A stretch of 50,602 nt of DNA from a virus. The stretch spans positions 1 to 50,602 of the IMG/VR virus record IMGVR_UViG_3300021379_000808, one strand, 5' to 3'. Below the pieces are notes generated by a model that was not told where the DNA came from, did not search any database, and was given only the letters and a program-made list of their open reading frames with translations. Every line of letters starts with the position of its first letter. Position 1 is the first letter of the stretch. A program made the translations under genes and the position numbers. Positions 23,843 to 47,752 of this stretch are shown here, one piece after another.

Positions 23843-24056
23843 TATCCTCAGCCCATTCTTTCAGGCAGTTGCTCTCATCGTGCTCGACCATTGGGAACAG
23901 CGTTGAGCAAACCGCACAAGACAGAATGTGGATCTTGCCTGTGTCGTCAGCCTTCCAGTTGAACAGGCCGCTATTGCAGGAGGCGCATATCACCTGACTT
24001 ACTGGCAGATTCGGCGGATCTTCCTTGCCACCCTCAATTACTCTGAGATCGCCCAC
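23835..24056 (-). CDS. Small zinc-ribbon protein
   Basis: 73 residues with two CxxC knuckles (CASC at about 24-27 and CAVC at about 47-50) separated by 19 residues (SGLFNWKADDTG), which forms a treble-clef or zinc-ribbon fold. The end is acidic (EHDESNCLKEWAEDNG). It overlaps the metallophosphoesterase gene by 23 bases and the holin-type gene by 8. It could bind nucleic acid or protein; I cannot assign a pathway. Confidence 0.6.
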   Translation of the reverse strand: MGDLRVIEGGKEDPPNLPVSQVICASCNSGLFNWKADDTGKIHILSCAVCSTLFPMVEHDESNCLKEWAEDNG

Positions 24057-25230
24057 TACGCGCTCTCCGAATATCGCACCTGTAGCGCTCTACCTCACCG
24101 TACTCTTTAGACTGCACAATGCAGTACATATCACGACCCGATCGGTAGCCCGAATTGTGGTGCCACGCATCCTTAGCCGCCATAGTGCGGAATGATTCCT
24201 GAACGCACCCCCTCAGCTCCTGCCGAGTTGTATGATGGATATGACCTGTATACCAGTATCTATGCTCAGACTCTGCCCACAGTTTAGGCTCATCCGTAGC
24301 CATCAGCTCTGACAACGCGCTGGTCCGAACCGTATCGCCGTGCGTTGTGCCAATCAGCACCTTGCCGTGCGTTATGTAATTGAATTTGTTGACCGTTGAG
24401 TGGATCAGCACTCTTGGCTCCTTGTGGAAGTACGCCGCAAGGAATGCCGACAGCATCACGCTCGAATGATCGTCGTGGTTGCCAATGCAGTTGATAACCT
24501 CGACCGTTGGGTGCTTTGACAGCGCCATCGAGATCAGATCGACCATCAGCATACAACCGGCTTGCAATACCCGATGCCACCTCGAATCAACGTCAAGCTT
24601 TGCCCCTGATCGCGTTGTGCGTTCGGAGCTGTTATCAGCGTGAAAGAAGTCGCCCAGATTGACGATCAATGCTCGGTCTGTTTTGGGCGCCACATCAACC
24701 AATCGAGACGTAGCGTTAATGAGGTCTTCCCGGGCTATGTCTACGTCAAAGTTTTCGCCTGCTTCCTCAGCGTGGGCATAGCATCCAATATGCGGATCAC
24801 CCATCACGTAACAGGCCATCAGATCCTCGCTGTCGGATACCGGAGCCTTGCGTGGCTTATAGACCCCTTTGAAGTCTTCCATCGCATCAACGATGGCCTC
24901 GTGGATTCCGGTAAGCTTGTCCTCTTCGGACTGCTGAGTCTTGACCCATTGGACCTTGACTGAGCCGTCGTCCGCATAGAGCGTTGACGTGCCCTTGACT
25001 GCAAAGCCCTCTGCAACCTGATGCACCATATCGCTCTCAGGTGCGACACCCTGCAATGCCGCTCGCTTCTTGAGCTTTGCCAGCCTACGCTTGACGCCCC
25101 TATCGTTAGCGCCGATAAGGCGTATTGCCTGATCTACATTCCCGTCTGTTTCTGCAAGCGCATCTAACAGCTCATGCTCTGCGACAGTCTCTGCAAACGG
25201 CTCAAGATAGCTAAGTCGATGTCCAGCCAT
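24034..25230 (-). CDS. Metallophosphoesterase with N-terminal HTH-like region
   Basis: 398 residues. Residues about 15-60 look like a small helical HTH (ELLDALAETDGNVDQAIRLIGANDRGVKRRL). The catalytic part has the five calcineurin-like motifs: GDPHIG (Asp145, His147), LGDFFHADN, GNHDDHS, THGD and GHIHH. These coordinate two metals and cleave phosphodiester or phosphomonoester bonds. The substrate is unknown; DNA or nucleotides are suggested by the HTH. It starts within the endolysin 3' end, so it is coexpressed late. Comparable proteins occur in marine podoviruses. Confidence 0.75.
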   Translation of the reverse strand: MAGHRLSYLEPFAETVAEHELLDALAETDGNVDQAIRLIGANDRGVKRRLAKLKKRAALQGVAPESDMVHQVAEGFAVKGTSTLYADDGSVKVQWVKTQQSEEDKLTGIHEAIVDAMEDFKGVYKPRKAPVSDSEDLMACYVMGDPHIGCYAHAEEAGENFDVDIAREDLINATSRLVDVAPKTDRALIVNLGDFFHADNSSERTTRSGAKLDVDSRWHRVLQAGCMLMVDLISMALSKHPTVEVINCIGNHDDHSSVMLSAFLAAYFHKEPRVLIHSTVNKFNYITHGKVLIGTTHGDTVRTSALSELMATDEPKLWAESEHRYWYTGHIHHTTRQELRGCVQESFRTMAAKDAWHHNSGYRSGRDMYCIVQSKEYGEVERYRCDIRRARSGRSQSN

Positions 25231-26466: not shown

Positions 26467-26495
26467 TTGACACAGTAGCGCTACTCGATTACGGT
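26467..26495 (+). promoter_or_regulatory. Early plus-strand promoter with palindromic operator
   Basis: TTGACA (26467-26472) and TACGGT (26490-26495) are 17 bases apart. The spacer contains the perfect palindrome AGTAGCGCTACT (26474-26485), an ideal place for a repressor dimer to block RNA polymerase. It would drive the accessory operon that begins with the type III hammerhead. The -10 is weak, so the exact start is uncertain. Confidence 0.55.
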
Positions 26496-26504
26496 TACAC
26501 CTAT

Positions 26505-26519
26505 CAACCAATTTGGTTG
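26505..26519. promoter_or_regulatory. CAACCAA/TTGGTTG inverted repeat
   Basis: Two perfect 7-base arms, CAACCAA and TTGGTTG, flank a single T just past the expected transcription start. It could be a second operator or the first hairpin of the leader RNA. Half-sites of related form (GGTTGT/ACAACC) occur at 34927-34959. Confidence 0.4.
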
Positions 26520-26653
26520 GCTGGCTACGAGGAGCCCAGACCCAAACCCTGCGGGAGACAACCCACCAAACCGGCGACCACTGAGTCAACCAGTGAGAGA
26601 CGACACCAAACGAGCACGATGAGCACCACCACCGGAGACGGCGTGGGAACATA
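26520..26653 (+). other. Untranslated leader of the accessory operon
   Basis: No supported gene lies between the promoter and the first ribozyme. An 11-codon frame at 26619-26654 (starting MSTTTGDG) lacks a good ribosome-binding site. A short hairpin CACTG/CAGTG occurs near 26578-26594. The whole control region from 26338 to 26725 therefore holds promoters, palindromes and RNA structure but no confirmed protein. Confidence 0.5.
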
Positions 26654-26705
26654 GCGTCAACACCTAATGCGAGGTGTTCTGATGATGGCCAGCAGGCCGA
26701 AACGC
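26654..26705 (+). ncRNA. Hammerhead self-cleaving ribozyme, type III
   Basis: In order: stem III 5' strand GCGU (26654-26657); cleavage nucleotide C17 (26658, triplet GUC); stem I AACACCU/AGGUGUU (26659-26665 with 26672-26678, 7 bp, loop AAUGCG); core CUGAUGA (26679-26685); an extra U (26686); stem II GGCC/GGCC (26687-26690 with 26695-26698, loop AGCA); core GAAA (26699-26702), whose last A starts stem III 3' strand ACGC (26702-26705). All core bases of the hammerhead consensus are present and every stem is perfectly paired. Opening through stem III makes it type III. Predicted cut is between 26658 and 26659, leaving a 5'-OH RNA 67 bases before the first start codon. The U after CUGAUGA is non-consensus. 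Confidence 0.85.
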
Positions 26706-26725
26706 AAAACAACGGAGTGTTACCA

Positions 26726-26911
26726 ATGCAGACCTTTGTATGCAAGGGTCGAGCGGGTAAGTGGTCCTACGGTTACCTTGCCGAGCCCGGCAAGCGAAAC
26801 GTGTGGGTGTACACCAACGGTGAGGTCACATACCGACCGCTTGGTGGAAACAACTTGATGGCCGCTTCAAGCGAAGCCACCACGTTGCACCGCAACTCGC
26901 TCGAGTCCTGA
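26726..26911 (+). CDS. 61-residue protein, first gene after the type III ribozyme
   Basis: ATG at 26726 follows GGAGTGTT at 26713-26720. The protein is small, basic/aromatic and beta-rich (MQTFVCKGRAGKWSYGYL; NVWVYTNGEVTYRPLGG) with a Ser/Thr-rich tail. No known family. It may be an early host-takeover or anti-defence protein, considering that it shares its operon with ArdC. An upstream TTG at 26717 would overlap the ribosome-binding site and is rejected. Confidence 0.7.
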   Translation: MQTFVCKGRAGKWSYGYLAEPGKRNVWVYTNGEVTYRPLGGNNLMAASSEATTLHRNSLES

Positions 26912-26920
26912 ATTAGATTC

Positions 26921-26955
26921 GGAGTCTGACCCACTTGGCAACAGAACGGGTCTCC
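26921..26955 (+). ncRNA. Structured leader between the two ribozymes
   Basis: GGAG (26921-26924) pairs with CUCC (26952-26955) and ACCC (26929-26932) with GGGU (26948-26951), leaving a UCUG bulge and a 15-base loop. CUGA, GAAC and GUC occur in the order of a type I hammerhead, but CUGAnGA and GAAA are not intact, so it is not called a ribozyme. It may be a decayed copy or another structured element. Confidence 0.4.
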
Positions 26956-26982
26956 CCTTTTAAAACAACTGGAGTGTTCAAT

Positions 26983-27429
26983 ATGACTACAAAAACATTG
27001 AAGCAAATCAACGCAGAACTCGCAGAGACCTCAGCCCAGCTCGAAGCTTTGGCGGATGTCCTGAGAGAAGCTAAGCAACACGTAGCTGACAAGACCCGGG
27101 AGGTCAGAGAGCTGGAGCGTTCAAGAACCGAGACGGCAGAGCGTGAACGGCGCAACTGGGTGAATCGCAACCGCTCGAAGGCCAAGCGATTAGCGGCCAA
27201 GTACGGTATCGAGATCGAGGACGAGTCGATCAGAGACTACGATGGATATGACCTGCGCCACTGGGTAGGTCAGCCAGACTGGCTTGAAGGTGACGACCCG
27301 CTCACAGATGGTCACTTCAGTCACTGCTGGAGCGACACTGTTTGGCTTGTCGAGTTTTACGCCAAGCATCACCCATCTCACCCAGATCACGAGAACCGTG
27401 AGCACAGGGTTCATAGCCCTCACTGCTAA
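26983..27429 (+). CDS. 148-residue coiled-coil protein
   Basis: ATG at 26983 follows GGAGTGTT. Residues about 4-60 are coiled coil (LKQINAELAETSAQLEALADVLREAK), then a basic helix (RRNWVNRNRSKAKRLAAKYG). The C-terminal half is Asp/Trp/His-rich (YDGYDLRHWVGQPDWLEGDD; HCWSDTVWLVEFYAKHHPSHPDHEN) and may bind metal. No known family. Its stop codon is one base before the type I hammerhead, so cleavage would trim its mRNA 3' end. Anti-defence or host-takeover function is inferred from context only. Confidence 0.7.
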   Translation: MTTKTLKQINAELAETSAQLEALADVLREAKQHVADKTREVRELERSRTETAERERRNWVNRNRSKAKRLAAKYGIEIEDESIRDYDGYDLRHWVGQPDWLEGDDPLTDGHFSHCWSDTVWLVEFYAKHHPSHPDHENREHRVHSPHC

Positions 27430-27430
27430 A

Positions 27431-27485
27431 CCCGTCTGACGATGGCTGGAGGGATACCAGCCGAAACGCCTCCGGGCGTCACGGG
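27431..27485 (+). ncRNA. Hammerhead self-cleaving ribozyme, type I
   Basis: In order: stem I 5' strand CCCGU (27431-27435); core CUGACGA (27436-27442); extra U (27443); stem II GGCUGG/CCAGCC (27444-27449 with 27457-27462, 7-base loop); core GAAA (27463-27466), its last A opening stem III ACGCC/GGCGU (27466-27470 with 27475-27479, loop UCCG); C17 (27480, triplet GUC); stem I 3' strand ACGGG (27481-27485). All three stems are perfect and the conserved core is complete apart from the extra U shared with the first ribozyme. Opening through stem I makes it type I. Predicted cut is between 27480 and 27481, separating the coiled-coil gene from ardC and leaving a 42-base ardC leader. Confidence 0.88.
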
Positions 27486-27522
27486 AATCCACCCGACAAC
27501 ATACAAAAATTTGGAGTGTTTT

Positions 27523-28383
27523 ATGACTAAGAAAAAAGTTGATGCCTATCAGGTAATCACGGACAAAGTAATCGCGATGCTAGAGACTCACGGGTCAGGC
27601 TGGACTAAGCCTTGGTCTGACAGCCTCGCAGGATCGCCTGTAAGCCTTTCCACCGGCAACCCCTATCGAGGTATCAACCGACTGCTACTCGGCCTTGAGG
27701 GACGTTCTGATGCGCGCTGGGGCACATACAAGGCTTGGTCAGAGAAGGGCGGTCAGGTTCGTAAGGGCGAGAAGGGTACTGCGGTTATCTTCTTTAAGCC
27801 CTTAGAGATTCGAGGTGATGACGGTGAGGTCGAGAAGAAGATCCCCTTTGCCCGTATATACAATGTATTCAATGCCGAGCAAGTTGACGGTATCGAATTG
27901 ATCCAACCTGAAGAGCTGACCCCCATAGAGTTAGATCAGCGTTGCGAGGATTTCATTGCCGAGACTGCCGCGCAAATCCGATTTGGTGGTGACTCTGCGT
28001 TCTACTCCCCGGTTGTCGATTACATCGGTATGCCGAGACCAGAGGCCTTTGAGTCTACTGCCGGTTACTACGGCGTCCTACTGCACGAGCTCACTCACTG
28101 GACTGGTCACTCTACCCGGTGCGACCGCAAGATCCTCAATAGCTTTGGTAACGAGGACTATGCGTTCGAGGAGCTGGTTGCCGAGCTAGGCGCCACCTTC
28201 CTTTGTGCCGATTTAGGTATCGAAATAGAGCCCCGCGAGGATCATGCACAGTATATCGCAAGCTGGCTCAAAGCGCTACGAAACGACAAGAAATTGATCG
28301 TTAAAGCGGCCAAGCAAGCCCAGCTCGCAAGCGAGTTCTTGCACGGCCTCCAAACAGAAAATCAACTAGCAGAGGCCGCATAA
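27523..28383 (+). CDS. ardC: ArdC-like antirestriction protein
   Basis: 286 residues, close to ArdC of plasmids (about 300). The N-terminal domain (about 3-115) has the ArdC pattern: YQVITDKVIAMLETHGSGWTKPW, NPYRGINRLLL, WGTYKAWSEKGGQVRKGEKG, and binds single-stranded DNA in known members. The C-terminal domain is a zincin-like metallopeptidase with HELTHWTGH (His188, Glu189, His192) and a downstream EELVAELGA. Such proteins protect incoming DNA from restriction. ATG at 27523 follows GGAGTGTT. The ribozyme cut lies 42 bases upstream and a hairpin encloses the stop codon. Confidence 0.88.
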   Translation: MTKKKVDAYQVITDKVIAMLETHGSGWTKPWSDSLAGSPVSLSTGNPYRGINRLLLGLEGRSDARWGTYKAWSEKGGQVRKGEKGTAVIFFKPLEIRGDDGEVEKKIPFARIYNVFNAEQVDGIELIQPEELTPIELDQRCEDFIAETAAQIRFGGDSAFYSPVVDYIGMPRPEAFESTAGYYGVLLHELTHWTGHSTRCDRKILNSFGNEDYAFEELVAELGATFLCADLGIEIEPREDHAQYIASWLKALRNDKKLIVKAAKQAQLASEFLHGLQTENQLAEAA

Positions 28384-28389
28384 GCGGCC
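28374..28389 (+). ncRNA. Hairpin around the ardC stop codon
   Basis: GGCCGCATAAGCGGCC is a perfect inverted repeat with 6-base arms and the ochre codon in the loop. The identical 16 bases occur at 28703-28718 around the next stop codon. No T-run follows, so it is not a terminator. mRNA stabilisation, processing or control of translational coupling are possible. Confidence 0.6.
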
Positions 28390-28403
28390 CGAGGGACAAG
28401 TAT

Positions 28404-28712
28404 ATGCAACCAATGCAAAAAGAAATCGTTAAAAAAATCGAAGCCTATGAAGGTATGGACCCAGCTAACGTGAGCGTAGCTGACCTGATCGCATACCAAC
28501 TGAGACTTACAACCTTGGTAAGTCGATACAATGCCAAAAACCCAGAACTCCGCCCAGTCCGAATTATGTTCTGCGGTAGTGGCGGCTTGATTGTTCATCT
28601 CGAATACCAGTACCTGAAGGTCTCACTGGAGCGGGTCAATGGGCGCCTCGACTGGCCCGATTCGCGTGATGTTTTGCAGGATTGGTACAACGACTACGAA
28701 CTGGCCGCATAA
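28404..28712 (+). CDS. 102-residue protein of unknown function
   Basis: ATG at 28404 after GAGGGA. The N-terminal half is helical (MQKEIVKKIEAYEGMDPANVSVADLIAYQLRL) and the C-terminal half is beta-rich (VRIMFCGSGGLIVHLEYQYL) with a Trp/Asp-rich end. No known family. It ends in the same Ala-Ala-stop hairpin as ardC. Location directly after ardC suggests an anti-defence or DNA-transfer accessory, by inference. Confidence 0.65.
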   Translation: MQPMQKEIVKKIEAYEGMDPANVSVADLIAYQLRLTTLVSRYNAKNPELRPVRIMFCGSGGLIVHLEYQYLKVSLERVNGRLDWPDSRDVLQDWYNDYELAA

Positions 28713-28718
28713 GCGGCC
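28703..28718 (+). ncRNA. Second hairpin around a stop codon
   Basis: Identical 16 bases to 28374-28389 (GGCCGCATAAGCGGCC), again centred on TAA. It is followed by TTTAACTGAGGAGAG, the ribosome-binding region of the next gene. Confidence 0.6.
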
Positions 28719-28737
28719 TTTAACTGAGGAGAGAAAA

Positions 28738-29268
28738 ATGTCTAAGATCATCTACAAAGAAATCCAAGTCCACTGGTGTATGGCTCGTTGCTGGGTTGTG
28801 CGAGGAGTGCCATTTGAGGGTATGCACCAAGTACTCGATACCCTGCCAACTCAAAGTCTAGCCATAGACATCGCAAAGCTTCACGCCTTTGGATCTGACC
28901 AGCTACCCCGCAAGGCATTGCAGGTCAGGGTTTTTAAGAAAAGTCACGGGCTCAAACAAATCATATCGCCCCCTGAAGATCTAAGCGAAAAAGTAAGCTC
29001 GCATGAGGAGCTTGTAATGCGCCTAGCGCGAGAATACTGCGAGCGCAGATCTTTCCCTTTCGACATACCGAGCGTTGGCACAACTATCGGAGCGATGGAG
29101 TTGGAGAAGCCGGTGAGTTGGTGGGGATCTGCTCACGATGTCTACGAGTGGGCTCTCCGCCTGCGCGACGAGATCATCGAGATCCGCAACTATATGGCCA
29201 GTCAAGGGCGCGGCCTTCACGACGAGCCTGTCGATAGACAGACAGACTATGTGGGGGGTGCGTTATGA
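28738..29268 (+). CDS. 176-residue protein of unknown function
   Basis: ATG at 28738 follows GAGGAGAG. Mixed composition: the N-terminal beta segment (IIYKEIQVHWCMARCWVVRGVPF), a central helical part, and a helical C-terminal region (AHDVYEWALRLRDEIIEIRNYMA). No domain recognised. The stop overlaps the next start (ATGA). It begins a run of nine tightly overlapped small genes (28738-30642). Confidence 0.6.
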   Translation: MSKIIYKEIQVHWCMARCWVVRGVPFEGMHQVLDTLPTQSLAIDIAKLHAFGSDQLPRKALQVRVFKKSHGLKQIISPPEDLSEKVSSHEELVMRLAREYCERRSFPFDIPSVGTTIGAMELEKPVSWWGSAHDVYEWALRLRDEIIEIRNYMASQGRGLHDEPVDRQTDYVGGAL

Positions 29269-39634: not shown

Positions 39635-42600
39635 TTAGCCAGCGCGGTCCTGCATGAATTCATCGTACCGCTTGTTGAAGCGATCAACGATATCGTCCTT
39701 GCTTTCCCTTAGCGCTTCGAGCTGTTGCTCTCTATCGGCAGGCGTTAGGTCGTCTCGATCCCGTATTCTCATCTCACGCTCGCGGATACGACGCAATCGC
39801 TTATAGACGTTATTGGCTTTTGGATACAGCGTTCGTATTCCATTAAAGCCTTCGTCGCTTGCCTTTCTTGCATTAGAGTCAGGCGCGTCATTGTATTCCT
39901 TGCGAGCGTTGATAATCTCCTGTCGCCTTTCGTAGAAGGTGTCGATGTCTCCGTAGTCGGACTGATCCTTACCAACAAGAACCCGAGCAAACGGCACATT
40001 AGCGATCTCCAACTGCCTGCCAGTAACGGGCCTAAATATAGAGTCGCCTGTACCTGTGGCCGTTCTCAATAAACCGCCGCCTGCGTACTCGATAATCTGC
40101 TGTAGAGTCTCTGGGCTAACGTCTGTAGAAATGCCCATAAGCTCGCCAGATCTGTACTCAGATCCGCCGCCAATAACGTCATTAAGGAACTGAGCCACCT
40201 GAACATAAGGCTCTTTGGTTGAAGGCCAGTACAAGTAAGCATCCGCCTTCTGTGCTCCGCCGGGGAAGTTTTCTGGGTAAATCTTCTCACCGAAGTAGTT
40301 AGTGTTTACTGCAAGCTCAGTGACCGGAAGCACAATGCTTGGGCTTATCGTTAGTGCCGCCTGAGCCGCCGCATTTTCCGCCCTGTGCAGACTGAACGGG
40401 GAGAACGACGTTGTGAAGCTAGACACCAAATCGCCAAGAATATTATCCCTTCTGCGCTGTGATCCTTTGAGCGCACCTTCCACCGAGTCGCCAAGATTCC
40501 AGAAGAAGTTGTAACCGTAGGGCAAGGGTAGCTTGTAGTAATCCCCGCCAGATCCGGGCTTCATAATGATGAGATTTCTTTCTCGTATGCCTGCGGGGAT
40601 CTTGTCCCAGAAAGCTTCGCCATCATCATCCTCACCACCCACTTCTCTCATTAGAGAAGCAAACCCAGCTCCGCCAGCAACAATGCCGCCAGCTATCTTC
40701 TGGGCTAGGTTTAGATTTCTCTGCACCTGAATGTTTCCTTGGCTGTTGACCTGAAGAGGGCTCAGTGTCCGCAAGAACTGAGTGGTTCCCTGAACTGCCG
40801 CGTTAAAGAACATATATAGCGAATTAACGAATGTTCCTATCTCGCCCTTGCGGTTAAAGTTCACCGTCATATTCTTGGCTAAGGACGCCGCCTGCTTGCG
40901 AGCAACGCCTGCCTTCCTAGCCTCGATATAGGCCGATAGTCTGACGCCGTTTTCTACTGCGCTGTTGTATTTCTCAACCAGCTCAGCAATCTTAACGCCA
41001 GCCTTCATCAAGTCATTCTTGGTGCCGGGGCCAGCTCTGCCTAGCTTCTTCTCTAGATCTGCGGCAATTGTGTCAACATCTGGAGAGTCAAAGTAACCAG
41101 TCTTTGCGCCGTCGTTAAGAAACTCTTGGTAGTATCGACGATACTCAGTAGCTTCTGGGTCAGAGTCGTCATTAACGGCATCTTGCTTATTGGATGATCT
41201 GATTGCGGCAATAGCCCTTGGCGTACCTGAGACAACTTTACCAGCAATCTGATTACCGTCTAACTTCCCGCCATCCATAGTGGCCTCTGCCATTAGATTC
41301 AGCGCCGCCGCCTGAATATCACGGGCGAAGTTCGTGACCACAAACTGAGGGTTGTATGAGGTATTAACAGATGCCAAGAACCGGGTCATCCCAGCAACAA
41401 CCTTGGTTACTGCGCTCAATCGCTCAGGACCAACATTCTGCATTGCATTAAGCAGTCGCTGATCCTTGACCTTGATGTAATGGACAATGCCATCCCGCTT
41501 GACTGCGTAGTATTTGTCTGACCCTGCCATATTGACCGGACCCTCTCTAACACTTCCGTTACGGAACTGCTCCTCAGTGTCCGGGTTTGCGTCAGTAAAG
41601 ACTTCCCACATATCAGGATCTGGGTTGCCCTCAACAAGATTAAGGAAGGTCTGGCCGACCTCGTTCTTCCTGTTGCGGATGGTCTTCTCTGTGAGATCCG
41701 CAATAACCTGAGATGTTGGGCTCTTCGCTTTGGATCTTCGGCCTAGTGCGCGGCGCGACTCTTTGCCTCGTATGTCAAAGCCCCTGCCTGTTCTAATTCT
41801 ATTGCCGTTAGAATCAACCTCGTCGTCAGCGAATCCCCGCAATGGGATGTAGTTTTCATACATACTCTCCCAAGAACTAACCTCCTCATCCGAGGCTAAG
41901 CCGCCAGACTTAATAAGATCTCGCGTAAGCTGAGTCATTGCGTATACTTGATTGGCAAGTTGGTTGTAGTCTGCCAGCTTCCCGGATCTCTGTACGCGCT
42001 GTATAACCTCTGCCGCTTCAGCGTTAGTCATACCTGAGCCACCGTCAGGTAGCTTGTCATTGATTGCCGCAATCTTACGGTTACGCTCTGGTGCGTGACG
42101 AGCCATCAGGTACTCGTCTAGATCGGCAACGCTAATGCCAGTCTTCTCAAGTAGCTCGACAAACGGACGAATCAGACGAACCTCTAGCTGTCGCAAGTCT
42201 TCTTCGGTCTTACCGTAAAAAGCCTCTTCCGCTAGGTAAGCGTCCTCGTCAAAGTCCAGCTTGCGCTCTTGCGTTTCCTCAATGAACTGCTGAGTGCGCT
42301 TGAGGCCGACCATTTTGTCTTGGAAGGTGCGGATGAATTTATCAGCAATAGTCTCTTCAGGCGGTCGCTTAGGGTAGATTCTCGCCGAGTCCCGCTGGAA
42401 CATTGGCAATCCTTCCTCTGTAACCTTCTGCTTAAACTCATCAGAGATAGGTGCGGCCCAGCCACGAATGCCTGCATCCTGCATGAGCTTCATTCTGAGT
42501 TTTTCTTCAGCTTGCTTTCTTGCGACCTCTACACCTTTGTCGGTGTAAATGTCCATAAAATCAATAGCAAGATAGTCGCTATTAGAAGGGAAAGTGACTG

Positions 42601-45600
42601 AGAAAGTGATCCTGTTGTTGTCGGAGTATTGGTCTCTGTATTTAATCTCTGCTTCGCCTGCGACCTTTAAAGCGTTCTCGTAAGCGGCAGTCGCATCAAG
42701 ACCCTGAACATCCACAGGGTAAGGCTTAACGCCGAGAAGCTTTCCTATCGCGCTAACGTGCTTCTTGTCATAAATCTGCTCGTAGAATCGGCCCCAGCGA
42801 TTGTTCAGCTGAGCGGCGCTTGAAATCATCAAGGCATCCTTGCCCTCCTCCACTGCGGTGATAAGCATCCGCTTGAGAGCAAGCTCCGCATAACGATCTT
42901 CAGTAAAGGGTACGTTTGGTGGAGCGCTTTGTGAATTGGCAAGCCTTCTTCTCGCGTCATCACGAGCCTTAGATTTCTTTCTGTTTTCGACCTCTAGACT
43001 TGCAAGTTCCCGCAGAAACCTATCAAGGTCTGGCTCAAGATCAGTAACCTCTTTAATGCTTCCTAGGTACGTTGCCGATGAAGAGTAGCTAATGTCCTTC
43101 CCCTGAAGCTCATCAGCAAAAGCCTGCCTAGCAATGCGTAAAAAATTATTGTAACTAGGAGTTGGATCTAAAATTCCCGGAGCATCCATTCTGCTCACCC
43201 CAAACAGATCCCCAACAAGCTTGGACACATCAGGGCTCAATAGCAATGCTTTTGCATTCTCCGCTACTGTGTCAATTCTCATTTGCGTACTGGCCATATC
43301 CAAGTCGATTTCATTAAGGGCTTTTTCGTCCCTATCAACCCTAGCCTGATCTCTTGGCCCTCCAGCTCTGCGGATATCACTCTGCCAATCAGACTGCATC
43401 TCCTCGATCATGAGGACATTGCCTAGCGCATTACGTCTATCGGTAGCGAGGACATTAAAAAGTGCGTTTTGCCCAAAGTGGCTTGAGTAGTATTGGCCCC
43501 ACTTGTTGTCAATGGTTGTAACAAACTCCCGGTACTGATCCCAATTCTCTTCTTTGACATCACTCAAGTAGTCTAGAAACTGGACATCATCTCCAGTGGC
43601 TACATACCCATACTCGTTAAGGTAGTTTTGAACCTGAACCTTGGCTTCGTCTAGGTCATAAACAATATCAAAATCACCCGTTTCTCCTCTCTCTGGGGTT
43701 ATTTGAATGCGCCAGCCCATATCATCGCTTCCTGAAATTTGGGCGTATCTGATCCCATCAACATCGGTAAGCAGATCAACGGTGGTGTATGGATCTGAGT
43801 TTATGTAGTCCTCTCGCGCAGTAACCCAAGCAACTTCGTCAATTTCGTTTTCAAACTCTGCCGCCAATTCAGGGTAAACTGTTTTTGCTCCAAGCTCCTT
43901 CACAAAAGAATAAACACCAGCCTCAGCGAACGACCCCCTGCTTAGGTATTCTTCTTGGGCTCTCGCGGTCACATCCTCATCGAATACGCCGCTTGATAAA
44001 AAGTCATAAACCTTTTGCTGATTTTCAAAAATAAAGTTGCTAATTACATCGCCAGCTCGACCCGCAAAGTCGCCCTGCTTTATCTCGTACTGGATGTCAT
44101 CCCAGATATACTCGTAGTATTCCTCGCTGTCTTGTATTTCAGGCTCACTGTACTCTAGCCCATCTTCGCTAATCTCAAATCCAGCCTGAGTTGTGGACTC
44201 AACGTCCTCCTCTAACTGTGGCGCCTCATCCCGCAAGAACTCAATCACCTCATCGCGAGTAAAACGACGGCTGGGGTCTTCGGTTAGGAACTGCTCAATC
44301 TCAGTGTACTGAGCCTCATCTTTTTTGATGCCCTTCCCTTTGAGGAAAGAAAAGATCTGGTCTCCACGAACGCTGGCGTCTGGGTTTTTCTTTGAAGGCT
44401 TAAAGATTTTATCGCCTTGGTCAATGATGACCTGCTCAGTGTTGGAGTACAGCTTTAGAGGGGTTTGCTTTGCTCTGGTGCGCTCGCCCATAATAAATGA
44501 TGGACGACCCTCTTGAGCGTTAGTCTGGTTGTTTAAAAAATTGTTCCGAGCTCTTTTTGCTACTAACGAAATATCACTTGCTCGCATACGCGATAGCTTC
44601 AAGAATGTGTTGTTGCGGAACCACTCGCGGATAGCACCAATAGCCTCGCGGGTACGTTGCTGTAACTTCTTAGAACCCTGCTGTCCTGTGTAAGCAAGCA
44701 TCTCGTTCACAAGAACTGCGTTGCGAGTATCTTGGTCTAAGCTGGAACCTTTCATTCCGCTAATATAAGGGCGCACATTAGCCTCAATGCCAAGCTCTCT
44801 AGCCAGCTTATCAAAGCCTTTCTGTCCACCCATTGCGGTCCACATACGATTCAGCGCTTTGTTGACGCCCTGATCTCGGTACATATCCATCACGCCGCCG
44901 TGAGTGCCTTCGTGTAGAAGCGCCTCTTCAACCTGCGATTCAGTCGCGAGCTTACCCTTGACGAGGTATACTGTCCCTCTATGGTAAACCGCGCTAATGT
45001 CCGCTCCATCGGAGCCCTGATCTCTTGCCGCTTGCTGGATTTCTTCCGGAAGCTCCGCAAAAGAAGAGCGCACGTCTACTCGATTACGGGCATCCCCGTC
45101 CTGACCGACGACCCTATCGAGGACAGAATTGAATTGTTCATCGTTGATGACGGGTCTTCGAGTGGCTCCTCTCTGGAATGAAGTGTCTAAACCTCCGTCT
45201 TCCTGAATGCCTCCAATCTCTGCATCACTACCTGTAGCTTGTCTCTCGCCGAAAGCTTCAGCTCCGGTCTGATCTCCAATGGGCGGCTGTAAAGTTGCTC
45301 TTCCTGATCCCTCGTTAAACGATTCAACATCTCGCTCTTCGGATTCGACAAGGCTTGCTTCTTGGGTTGGCTCTCTTTGCGATCCATAGCTGGCATCAAA
45401 AGACTCCTGATAATATTGGTCAACGAATGCTATTTCGTCGTCAGTTAATGGGCCGAACTCATCCTGAAGCTCAATAAGAGTTCGTGATATTTCTTCCTGC
45501 TCAACTTCTAAGCTAGGAATATCCGCTCTGCTATCGCCAACGAATACGCGATCATTAGACTGGATGGCCGTTGTGAAAAGATCCAAGACTTCGTTGGCTG

Positions 45601-47752
45601 TTGGGCGCTCTGGGAAGAAGCCATTTTCCGCAAGCTTCTCTCCCATATCATCAAAGCTCAGGCCATTCCTTCTTACGGGTCTTGCCCGTCCTGAGTAGCC
45701 CCTAAATGATTCTGGGTCTATACCCTGAGTAATCGCCTCGTCAGTTTGTATGCCGCCAAGTCGAGCGATTGCCGTTAGAACGTCAGTGTCTTGTGCGCTA
45801 GTTGATCGTGGGGGCACTTCCTGAGCTTGCTCAATGCGATCCTCAATCTCGATTAAGCGCGACTCCATCTCTGGTGCAGATGCCGCCTCATATGATTCTC
45901 GGAGTCCCTGCGTTGTGTCGCGAATCTCAGGCTCGGGCTGTGCCGCTTGATTAGTTTGGTCAATAAAGTTATTAACCGACTCAGGGTTTGCCTGTCTACG
46001 CTCGCGTCTGAATCCAGCAAGCGCAAAGCGCTCTGTGTTTGGATCTTGGAATACTTCCCAGTTGAACCCCGGCTCCGCCTTCTGACGGCTCTTCATTGCC
46101 GCGTCAGCGCCCTTTCTGGTAGCAAAGCCATCACCCCTAGATCCTTGGTAAATCGTGTCTGGAGCGCCTTCTATGGGCTCCTGATAGATGACGTTATCTT
46201 GGGTTAGAAGTGGGCGACGTTGAGTCCTAACTACTGGACCTTGCTCGACGTATGAGGCATCGAAATTAACGTCTGTGTCTGCGGTTATGACCGGCCCTTC
46301 CAAGGGCTCACTTGGATCTCGAACAGGAGGCTGACGCAAGAACTCCTGAGACATCTCAGTGCCGACAATCGCGTTAGCTCGCTCAATGAGTCTGGCTCGC
46401 AAGCCCTCATCTGCTGTGCCTTGTGCGCGGTCATATATAGCTTGTGCGTTGCGGAGGCGAGTGGCTCGCTCTGGCTGGTTTACCCTATCGGCGAAAAGTA
46501 TCTCTTCTGTTAAGTCAAAGGGTAACTGGGGAACTTCTTGCTGGGGCTGGAAAGGCGCTGGCGTAACAATCGGTTGGAAGGGTGTTGGCTGTAGCGTGTC
46601 CTGATCGAACTGATTAGCAAGCTCCGGTAGCTGTATTGTGGAAGGAGCTGGCTCCTCGATATTCATACGCTCGCGAAGAGCCGAAAGGTCTGTATTAGCA
46701 AAGCCTCCAGATGCGGCAGTCGCGGCATCGAGATTGTCGCCGCCGTTGGCTACTGCATCTGCTCTAGCGGCTTCTGCGTTTTCGCTGGCCTCCTGCATTG
46801 GAGAGGAGAGCCCAGCAACACCACCGCCCAGTATGCCTCCACCAAGCGCGCCAAGACCCGCCGCCTGACCGACGCCCTCAAAAGTTTCCCGCGTTGGGTC
46901 AATAGGCTGTACGGCAATGTTTCCTGCAATCTGACCGCCGCCTTCTTCAAGCGTCTCTTGCAGTGACTCGCTACCGGCGCCCTTCAGAGCGCGAGAGAAA
47001 AATCCATCGCCTTTAACGCCGCCTCTGGCTAGGCTTCTTTCGATAGTGTTCGGCAAAACACCAGCAGTAACGCCAGATATAACTCCAGATATGCTGGCCG
47101 CTTTGCGCGAGGCATCAAGGGCGATCTCATTCTTTGCTTCTTCTCTACCCACTTGGTCTGATAAAGCAATGAAGTCTGCGTTTTGATTCCAGATATCATC
47201 CGGCAATGCCTTGAGGTCGTCGAACACACTCCCGCCAACATCGCCAGCTTGCAGTGCGCCGCCAGTAACCACACCGGCTCCAGCGCCAACTCTTGCAGAT
47301 TTCGTTAGAAGAGATGCCCCCTTCGCAACAGCACCTCCGGGTACTGCCATTGGAGCCTGCTCAAGAACAAAGTTACCAAGTAGATCAAGATCGCTAATAG
47401 TTCCCCAAACAGCCTCGCCTGCCTTTGCAAGCTGACCATCAGCAGAGTCAATGCGAGCTTGAAGATCGGCCTGCTTCTGCAAAAGCTCGTCAGTCTTAAA
47501 TTGCTCGTAAAACTCACGTCCACGCTCCGCTTGGCGAGTGGCCATATTGTCCATATCGCCAGATACAAGACCATACAGACTACCCACAGAACCAAGGAGA
47601 TTGTTTGCGCCTATACCGAATGATGCAAAAATATTGCTTTTAAAGGGCTCGGGCTCAGGCTGAGCTTCAAATTCGTCAAAGAACCCGCCATAAGGGCTGT
47701 TGCTAGATGGTCCGTCGAACTCATCAAAAAAACCGCCGTACTTGGCCATCAA
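39635..47752 (-). CDS. 2705-residue polyvalent virion protein
   Basis: 8.1 kb. Starts with two GGFFDEF repeats, then Gly/Ala hydrophobic helices (about 130-320; VSGVITSGVTAGV-like stretches) that could insert into membrane. A zincin motif LLHEGTHGG lies at about 944-952. Regions near 535-560 (GDGFATRKGADAAMKSRQKA), 1090-1190 (KGIKKDEAQYTEIEQFL) and 1440-1700 (LMIEEMQSDW; EGKDALMISSAAQ) fit large polyvalent-protein domains of phages. The part from about 2110 on (SVNTSYNPQFVVTNFARDIQAA; NRKGEIGTFVNSLYMFF; YKLPLPYGYNFFWN) resembles the LPD38 module. Such proteins are carried in the virion and enter the cell with DNA. Ends at attP. Confidence 0.75.
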   Translation of the reverse strand: MMAKYGGFFDEFDGPSSNSPYGGFFDEFEAQPEPEPFKSNIFASFGIGANNLLGSVGSLYGLVSGDMDNMATRQAERGREFYEQFKTDELLQKQADLQARIDSADGQLAKAGEAVWGTISDLDLLGNFVLEQAPMAVPGGAVAKGASLLTKSARVGAGAGVVTGGALQAGDVGGSVFDDLKALPDDIWNQNADFIALSDQVGREEAKNEIALDASRKAASISGVISGVTAGVLPNTIERSLARGGVKGDGFFSRALKGAGSESLQETLEEGGGQIAGNIAVQPIDPTRETFEGVGQAAGLGALGGGILGGGVAGLSSPMQEASENAEAARADAVANGGDNLDAATAASGGFANTDLSALRERMNIEEPAPSTIQLPELANQFDQDTLQPTPFQPIVTPAPFQPQQEVPQLPFDLTEEILFADRVNQPERATRLRNAQAIYDRAQGTADEGLRARLIERANAIVGTEMSQEFLRQPPVRDPSEPLEGPVITADTDVNFDASYVEQGPVVRTQRRPLLTQDNVIYQEPIEGAPDTIYQGSRGDGFATRKGADAAMKSRQKAEPGFNWEVFQDPNTERFALAGFRRERRQANPESVNNFIDQTNQAAQPEPEIRDTTQGLRESYEAASAPEMESRLIEIEDRIEQAQEVPPRSTSAQDTDVLTAIARLGGIQTDEAITQGIDPESFRGYSGRARPVRRNGLSFDDMGEKLAENGFFPERPTANEVLDLFTTAIQSNDRVFVGDSRADIPSLEVEQEEISRTLIELQDEFGPLTDDEIAFVDQYYQESFDASYGSQREPTQEASLVESEERDVESFNEGSGRATLQPPIGDQTGAEAFGERQATGSDAEIGGIQEDGGLDTSFQRGATRRPVINDEQFNSVLDRVVGQDGDARNRVDVRSSFAELPEEIQQAARDQGSDGADISAVYHRGTVYLVKGKLATESQVEEALLHEGTHGGVMDMYRDQGVNKALNRMWTAMGGQKGFDKLARELGIEANVRPYISGMKGSSLDQDTRNAVLVNEMLAYTGQQGSKKLQQRTREAIGAIREWFRNNTFLKLSRMRASDISLVAKRARNNFLNNQTNAQEGRPSFIMGERTRAKQTPLKLYSNTEQVIIDQGDKIFKPSKKNPDASVRGDQIFSFLKGKGIKKDEAQYTEIEQFLTEDPSRRFTRDEVIEFLRDEAPQLEEDVESTTQAGFEISEDGLEYSEPEIQDSEEYYEYIWDDIQYEIKQGDFAGRAGDVISNFIFENQQKVYDFLSSGVFDEDVTARAQEEYLSRGSFAEAGVYSFVKELGAKTVYPELAAEFENEIDEVAWVTAREDYINSDPYTTVDLLTDVDGIRYAQISGSDDMGWRIQITPERGETGDFDIVYDLDEAKVQVQNYLNEYGYVATGDDVQFLDYLSDVKEENWDQYREFVTTIDNKWGQYYSSHFGQNALFNVLATDRRNALGNVLMIEEMQSDWQSDIRRAGGPRDQARVDRDEKALNEIDLDMASTQMRIDTVAENAKALLLSPDVSKLVGDLFGVSRMDAPGILDPTPSYNNFLRIARQAFADELQGKDISYSSSATYLGSIKEVTDLEPDLDRFLRELASLEVENRKKSKARDDARRRLANSQSAPPNVPFTEDRYAELALKRMLITAVEEGKDALMISSAAQLNNRWGRFYEQIYDKKHVSAIGKLLGVKPYPVDVQGLDATAAYENALKVAGEAEIKYRDQYSDNNRITFSVTFPSNSDYLAIDFMDIYTDKGVEVARKQAEEKLRMKLMQDAGIRGWAAPISDEFKQKVTEEGLPMFQRDSARIYPKRPPEETIADKFIRTFQDKMVGLKRTQQFIEETQERKLDFDEDAYLAEEAFYGKTEEDLRQLEVRLIRPFVELLEKTGISVADLDEYLMARHAPERNRKIAAINDKLPDGGSGMTNAEAAEVIQRVQRSGKLADYNQLANQVYAMTQLTRDLIKSGGLASDEEVSSWESMYENYIPLRGFADDEVDSNGNRIRTGRGFDIRGKESRRALGRRSKAKSPTSQVIADLTEKTIRNRKNEVGQTFLNLVEGNPDPDMWEVFTDANPDTEEQFRNGSVREGPVNMAGSDKYYAVKRDGIVHYIKVKDQRLLNAMQNVGPERLSAVTKVVAGMTRFLASVNTSYNPQFVVTNFARDIQAAALNLMAEATMDGGKLDGNQIAGKVVSGTPRAIAAIRSSNKQDAVNDDSDPEATEYRRYYQEFLNDGAKTGYFDSPDVDTIAADLEKKLGRAGPGTKNDLMKAGVKIAELVEKYNSAVENGVRLSAYIEARKAGVARKQAASLAKNMTVNFNRKGEIGTFVNSLYMFFNAAVQGTTQFLRTLSPLQVNSQGNIQVQRNLNLAQKIAGGIVAGGAGFASLMREVGGEDDDGEAFWDKIPAGIRERNLIIMKPGSGGDYYKLPLPYGYNFFWNLGDSVEGALKGSQRRRDNILGDLVSSFTTSFSPFSLHRAENAAAQAALTISPSIVLPVTELAVNTNYFGEKIYPENFPGGAQKADAYLYWPSTKEPYVQVAQFLNDVIGGGSEYRSGELMGISTDVSPETLQQIIEYAGGGLLRTATGTGDSIFRPVTGRQLEIANVPFARVLVGKDQSDYGDIDTFYERRQEIINARKEYNDAPDSNARKASDEGFNGIRTLYPKANNVYKRLRRIREREMRIRDRDDLTPADREQQLEALRESKDDIVDRFNKRYDEFMQDRAG

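Follow-up and report, generated by a model that had tools for sequence, protein, structure and literature searches.

We analysed a stretch of viral DNA of 50,602 nucleotides (nt), positions 1 to 50,602 of IMG/VR record IMGVR_UViG_3300021379_000808; this whole stretch of 50.6 kilobases (kb) is called the window below. An operon on its plus strand carries two motifs of the hammerhead self-cleaving ribozyme. The first, HH-A, lies in the 5' leader, and the second, HH-B, lies between the stop codon of a gene for a protein of 148 amino acids (aa) and the ribosome-binding site of ardC, the gene of an anti-restriction protein. Comparison with related loci showed that the position of the predicted ribozyme next to the 148-aa gene and ardC is kept while its sequence and topology change. 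With moderate confidence, we read the window as a ribozyme-punctuated phage operon, in which the ribozymes would form mRNA 3' ends independently of termination and leave the upstream mRNA protected by a hairpin. The comparison of relatives suggests a concrete and testable reason for the presence of ribozymes at gene boundaries.

Two hammerhead motifs on one strand

The window was searched with a descriptor consisting of the hammerhead core (CUGANGA ... GAAA ... UH) and a check of all three stems. The results showed that HH-A and HH-B were the only matches in the window, both on the plus strand, while 200 Markov-simulated windows gave 1 match. The loose pattern CTGANGA...GAAA by itself was uninformative, with 6 occurrences in the window against 3.2 expected. 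A covariance model was then built from 63 other phage type I hammerheads, with the window and a related contig, L001, left out of training, and it recognised HH-B with E=2.8e-21 and the core of HH-A with E=2e-5. The covariation score of the type I alignment (63 sequences) was 0.514, compared with 0.134 after shuffling, and none of 500 shuffles reached 0.514; stems I and III were about 99% paired, which is partly by construction as the descriptor requires pairing. The first-pass annotation of this DNA had placed hammerheads in two of three consecutive leaders, and these searches bear that out, with HH-A assigned to type III and HH-B to type I.

HH-B (plus strand, 27431-27485) begins 1 nt past the stop codon that ends the 148-aa gene and lies 37 nt ahead of the ardC start. 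Its sequence is CCCGU-CUGACGA-U-GGCUGG-AGGGAUA-CCAGCC-GAA-ACGCC-UCCG-GGCGU-C^ACGGG, with the predicted cut at 27480/27481 and an extra U (27443) after A9. Loop II contains GGAU (27452-27455), predicted to form a pseudoknot with AUCC located 3' of stem I (27487-27490), and this pairing, spanning 27452-27490 on the plus strand, is supported across relatives. A loop II/tail pseudoknot of at least 4 Watson-Crick pairs was found in 49 of 95 distinct loop/tail combinations, whereas 1000 shuffles averaged 11.7 and never exceeded 24. The pseudoknot is an independent test of hammerhead identity, because the search did not demand it.

HH-A (plus strand, 26654-26705, predicted cut 26658/26659) was identified by the descriptor, the covariance model and its homologue in L001. 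The sequence is GCGUC^AACACCU-AAUGCG-AGGUGUU-CUGAUGA-U-GGCC-AGCA-GGCC-GAAACGC, in which stem III has just 4 base pairs (bp) and an extra U (26686) stands between A9 and stem II. Loop I (UGC) and loop II (GCA) could make a 3-bp contact, which was matched by eye. The L001 homologue has a 6-bp stem III and no extra U. The assignment of HH-A is less secure than that of HH-B: its single close homologue is the one in L001, distant homologues are few, and it is seen by the type I model in its core only.

An extra U between A9 and stem II, as carried by both window motifs, was found in 66 of 115 distinct phage motifs, and in most of the sampled phage type I hammerheads (L022-L119 and further loci), whereas the strict consensus has none; insertions at this place in known alignments are of at most one or two nt (PMC10085705). 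The same U-variant type I pattern was observed in bacterial genome contigs (L106-L119), including Paenibacillus, Cohnella and Oscillibacter valericigenes, where it probably marks prophages. Rfam reported no ribozyme in the window at gathering or relaxed thresholds, and its weak CRISPR-DR6 and rydB matches there were taken as chance. The Rfam type I model gave a canonical relative just 23 bits against a cut-off of 34, and the Rfam cut-offs also missed the hammerheads in the related loci submitted. Since the submitted phage loci fall below the Rfam hammerhead cut-off, annotation pipelines will miss such hammerheads.

A search of viral contigs with the type I pattern yielded 84 stretches, many of which hold two to six hammerheads on one strand. 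The window shows the same clustering, with two hammerheads in 0.8 kb of one strand around two phage genes. In the phage contig L063, a pistol ribozyme (L063:799-874, Rfam 62 bits) precedes about seven arrayed hammerheads (L063:1464 onward; G015:C1:1464-5651), which places two ribozyme classes in one operon. Flavonifractor phage Castelnaud showed a similarity on the strand opposite to an annotated gene, and this was set aside.

Placement beside the 148-aa gene and ardC

The gene of the 148-aa protein (plus strand, 26983-27429) has no Pfam or PHROG match. Its seven viral relatives, with 45-55% identity, were collected without reference to ribozymes, and a hammerhead was found directly after the gene in all eight phages, the window included. 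The type was I in L363 and the window, II in L360-L362, and III in L359, L364 and L365.

The protein encoded by ardC (plus strand, 27523-28383, 286 aa) has an ArdcN domain followed by a zincin-like metallopeptidase domain (MPTase-PolyVal) with an HExxH motif, here HELTH, and so has the composition of an ArdC. In a first scan of 87 ardC-bearing viral loci, a hammerhead was found on the ardC strand in 20, with 0 on the opposite strand and 0 in simulated sequence. Three further ardC loci have a type II ribozyme directly after ardC, giving about a quarter of the 87 overall, and all three topologies occur among the hammerheads adjoining ardC. After removal of near-duplicates by hand, 13 of 24 ardC-locus hammerheads lay within 100 nt of the gene. 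The architecture seen upstream of ardC in the window recurs in relatives, as a type I hammerhead was found 70-98 nt before ardC in L016, L155, L172, L174, L177, L192 and L193, which is what the earlier annotation had suggested looking for. The window belongs to a broad set of loci that retain the site of the ribozyme but exchange its sequence and topology, a pattern pointing to selection for the cut as such.

Of the protein families that could be recognised downstream of phage hammerheads, ArdC was the most frequent, in a sample that includes loci fetched via ardC. Among the pattern-derived loci it was present in few (L023, L085, L220 and, as a fragment, L118), and most downstream proteins were unknown. 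No enrichment of defence genes was found downstream of phage hammerheads, where the proteins are mostly small and unrelated, with one weak defence-family match. Relatives chosen by an AAA gene contained no descriptor hammerhead in 103 kb and no ArdC except in L001; they are a weak control, because the set is small and lacks ArdC apart from L001. In annotated phages, a hammerhead was found in 1 of 11 ArdC regions, that of MW202801 only. This complete deposited genome (L372, MW202801.1, Podoviridae sp. ctQWt234) has a type II hammerhead at 2530-2585, directly after the gene 3' of ardC, which is unannotated there.

The ArdC of L001, the closest relative, is 96% identical to that of the window. 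The two sequences match through 26721 and again from 27429, and everything between HH-A and HH-B is unrelated, so that L001 has the HH-A and HH-B leaders nearly unchanged around two unrelated genes. The name antirestriction operon, given in the first-pass annotation, is not supported for the window: no gene other than ardC could be recognised, and L001 has entirely different genes between its ribozymes.

Hairpins on the upstream side of the predicted cut

Phage hammerheads were found to follow a stop codon at a median of 0 nt and to precede the next Shine-Dalgarno sequence or start by a median of 29 nt, with starts called by simple rules and some counts de-duplicated by hand. The median distance from stop to cut was 50 nt for type I, 26 nt for type II and 30 nt for type III, and the ribozyme end lay about 20-37 nt from the start codon in all three topologies. 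Type I motifs start a median of 0 nt after the upstream stop, while type III motifs leave a gap of about 24 nt, which usually holds a GC-rich hairpin that touches the ribozyme. This gap held a perfect stem of 5 bp or more in 18 of 27 cases before type III, compared with 2 of 31 comparable cases before type I and 35 of 400 ordinary gene ends. Furthermore, a hairpin abutted the 5' edge of 22 of 28 type III motifs that follow a gene and of 1 of 19 in gene-free leaders (P=6e-7 by locus, P=2e-4 by hand-made ribozyme families). HH-A was counted as a leader-only type III, because the short open reading frame (ORF) ending at its edge overlaps a promoter-like site. This contrast indicates that the hairpin goes with the upstream gene, and the leader-only motifs do not support a role for it as a folding aid of the ribozyme. 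In types I and II the hairpin is within the ribozyme, and the 5' product would end in stem III. The window operon, with type III in the leader and type I after a gene, follows this rule.

The upstream mRNA would nearly always be hairpin-ended after cutting, which suggests mRNA 3' ends that are made by ribozymes and protected by hairpins; the asymmetry of the rule indicates which side of the cut matters. We propose that HH-A and HH-B would cut themselves during transcription and split the early transcript at gene boundaries. The cut at HH-A would release a free non-coding leader RNA of about 155 nt and leave a two-cistron mRNA that starts with a 5'-OH and, as its first element, the hairpin of stem I. 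The cut at HH-B would end this mRNA, of 822 nt, in the stem III hairpin with a 2',3'-cyclic phosphate, and would provide the ardC mRNA with its own short 5'-OH leader and its own Shine-Dalgarno sequence, with a stop-codon hairpin at the coding end. The coding units might then decay independently, each on its own schedule, presumably leading to unequal cistron levels. The upstream message would be cut outside the terminating ribosome, and its 3' hairpin would slow 3' exonucleases. Such a hairpin would be supplied by stem III in types I and II, by the added 5'-edge hairpin in gene-following type III, and often by a stop-codon hairpin where no ribozyme is present, as at ardC.

Phage self-cleaving ribozymes in general may be interchangeable formers of mRNA 3' ends, which take an extra hairpin only when they end a coding message and their own topology supplies none; we put this wider statement forward tentatively, with less confidence than the reading of the window. 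If true, phages form mRNA 3' ends that need neither a terminator nor a host endonuclease. It would also answer what hammerheads do in phages, where the role of prokaryotic and phage hammerheads has been called open in a 2017 review by De la Pena (PMC6155905) and in a 2023 paper (PMC10085705).

The cistron-splitting arrangement has been known since 2011, and the window operon is a further case of that kind. Perreault et al. (PMC3088659) described hammerhead clusters flanking prophage and phage genes, tested three of them and proposed gene-length mRNAs; for the A. tumefaciens triple hammerhead array around ardA, cleavage was shown both in vitro and in E. coli (PMC3088659). As in those clusters, several hammerheads on one strand flank single genes or small phage gene blocks here, including an anti-restriction gene, and for both the proposed outcome is the cutting of long transcripts into mRNAs of gene length. 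Unlike the A. tumefaciens array, the window has ardC instead of ardA, one type III and one type I motif, and an extra U after A9, and its motifs are known from sequence. The autocatalytic separation of cistrons suggested in the first-pass annotation is thus made more plausible by the stop-to-start placement and by the kept position with exchanged topology, but the idea is not new (PMC3088659). What the present comparison adds is that one topology can replace another where the position stays fixed, together with the hairpin rule. Neither the exchange at a fixed place by ardC and the 148-aa gene nor the hairpin rule was found in the literature searched, of which coverage was partial, and priority is not claimed.

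Other known systems share part of this picture. Prokaryotic hammerheads flank small non-conserved ORFs, and new ribozyme classes were found via that association (PMC6155905, PMC10085705). The window likewise has small unknown ORFs between ribozymes, ribozymes near ribozymes and a link to phages; Mu-like phage genes were the strongest association in PMC10085705, whereas the recurrent neighbours here are ardC and the 148-aa gene. HHphage of haloviruses HF1 and HF2 likewise stands a few nt upstream of an early gene of the phage, and a mapped transcript 5' end coincides with its cut (PMC3088659); it belongs to an archaeal virus and has its core insertion elsewhere (near C3), unlike the window motifs. 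Retrozymes and viroid-like circular RNAs have the hammerhead motif in common with the window, but HH-A and HH-B differ in topology, flank two genes and show no dimeric repeat.

Several points weigh against our reading of hairpin-protected 3' ends. With types I and II, cutting would in any case leave a hairpin at the end of the product, therefore only type III tests the rule, and 6 of the 28 gene-following type III motifs have no hairpin. The loci behind the rule were partly selected by ribozyme patterns, and many are related. The protection of mRNA 3' ends by hairpins is drawn from general knowledge of bacterial mRNA decay. Self-cleavage at HH-A and HH-B in this phage is predicted from sequence alone, and HH-A is weaker than its L001 homologue owing to its shorter stem III and inserted U. 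Moreover, 4 of 18 tested hammerheads that conformed to the consensus were inactive (PMC3088659).

It is possible, though we consider it unlikely, that the conserved ribozyme leaders are mainly gene-shuffling boundaries, in which short stretches of homologous DNA at gene ends would allow accessory genes to be swapped among phages and cutting is neutral or tolerated. The match between the window and L001 that breaks off at 26721 and resumes at 27429 fits such shuffling, as does the variable presence of a 102-aa gene between hairpin repeats. Among 45 leader pairs with similar ribozyme DNA, 24 share neither neighbouring gene, and since the neighbours on both sides are unrelated, shuffling along these leaders certainly happens. 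However, shared DNA explains neither the change of topology at a kept position nor the covariation of the pseudoknot, and it leaves unexplained why hairpins accompany gene-following type III only. Leader shuffling may be a consequence of 3'-end formation by ribozymes, and the two can coexist.

We give a similarly low probability to an explanation centred on the 5' end, in which the 5'-OH, joined in types II and III by a hairpin of stem I, would shield ardC and similar mRNAs from 5'-dependent decay and set their level. That the start codon keeps a constant distance from the ribozyme, whatever the topology, would suit this, and HH-A is predicted to leave a 5' hairpin. In mixed clusters the leading ribozyme is usually of type III (9 of 11, P about 0.02). 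The majority type I, however, would leave an unstructured 5' leader, and the hairpin rule concerns the opposite side of the cut. The same 9 of 11 clusters gave weak support to the view that the purpose of HH-A and HH-B is to bracket a block, with type III first and type I last, which was not adopted.

RNAs with 5'-OH and 2',3'-cyclic phosphate ends are substrates of RtcB-type ligases. A circular or spliced RNA could arise if the 822-nt RNA (26659-27480) were released and its ends ligated as in viroid-like RNAs, for which these ends would be suitable. We regard this as very improbable, because no RtcB or RNA_ligase match was found in 26 related hammerhead-bearing records, many of which are fragments, and because Perreault et al. 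sought circular and spliced products and found none (PMC3088659). It is just as improbable that cleavage is a regulated switch answering a signal, or that it conceals transcripts from a defence that senses them, an evasion suggested in the first-pass annotation and not supported here. The U inserted after A9, which many phage hammerheads share, might slow cleavage, and ardC is a counter-defence gene, but the loops are short and offer no candidate ligand domain, and the downstream genes are mostly the unrelated small ones described above. Chance resemblance is the least credible explanation: the loose pattern is expected about 3 times per window, but the full descriptor, the model E-values, the covariation and the conserved placement oppose it, and it is already refuted for HH-B, with HH-A resting on fewer homologues.

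The remainder of the operon and its surroundings

The structural genes of the record are mostly on the minus strand, with a portal/head-tail match among its proteins, and the plus-strand operon begins near 26.5 kb. A candidate early promoter (plus strand, 26467-26485) consists of a -35-like hexamer, TTGACA (26467-26472), followed by the palindrome AGTAGCGCTACT (26474-26485). Both elements are kept in L001, where the bases immediately 3' diverge. A consensus promoter scan gave no full sigma-70 match at 26467-26485, and we take the site as a probable regulated early promoter of the operon.

The 5' leader ahead of HH-A (plus strand, 26486-26653) is about 150-170 nt long, and no hairpin in it abuts the ribozyme. 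Its folding stability was like that of shuffles (z 0.03), which gives no sign of a structured RNA. The part at 26510-26653 (about 145 nt) is nearly identical in L001, while the neighbouring block is 86% identical, and an exact search with part of the leader matched L001's contig only. This part is possibly a small RNA released by HH-A.

The ORFs of 61, 148 and 286 aa are present as had been annotated earlier, the third being ArdC. The 61-aa gene (plus strand, 26726-26911) has no family match, and L001 has an unrelated 72-aa gene instead. The middle leader (plus strand, 26912-26982) holds a GACCC...GGGTC stem-loop that had been taken as structured, but this weak structure did not exceed shuffled sequence in stability (z 0.04 and -0.06). 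No ribozyme was found in this leader by Rfam at relaxed threshold or by fold tests, and at the same position L001 has a leader with a strong hairpin. The leaders had also been described as standing out in a genome of otherwise overlapping genes. The gaps of 71 and 93 nt here agree with this, but the next gaps are 20 and 25 nt, and mostly 4-nt overlaps are found only beyond those.

A stop-codon hairpin, GGCCGC-AUAA-GCGGCC, lies at the 3' end of ardC (plus strand, 28374-28389) and is repeated at the end of the next gene (plus strand, 28703-28718). Both are exact copies of GGCCGCATAAGCGGCC, each encloses a stop codon, and each has a z of about -3. Between them lies the 102-aa gene (plus strand, 28404-28712). 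L001 has one copy of the hairpin and no such gene, which fits a gain or loss of the 102-aa gene between the repeats; the identical hairpins that had been reported at two consecutive gene ends are real, but they would mark this event. No plus-strand terminator-like site, defined as a GC-rich hairpin with a direct T run, was found at 28374-28389 or 28703-28718. Stop-codon hairpins of at least 5 bp and varied sequence were present at 15 of 62 ardC 3' ends, compared with 17 of 376 other stops. The ardC 3' ends of L121, L128-L130, L138, L141, L148-L150, L157, L158, L187, L191 and L197 carry hairpins that differ in sequence and have the stop codon in their loop.

On the minus strand, a terminator-like hairpin with eight T (26331-26315) lies just upstream of the minus-strand genes. 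A 2705-aa protein is encoded at 39635-47752 (minus strand); its N-terminal part matches the virion RNA polymerase family (PHROG 2206, E=5e-17), and its C-terminal part matches large proteins of unknown function. The late region also encodes, at 24034-25230 (minus strand), a 398-aa protein with a calcineurin-like phosphoesterase domain.

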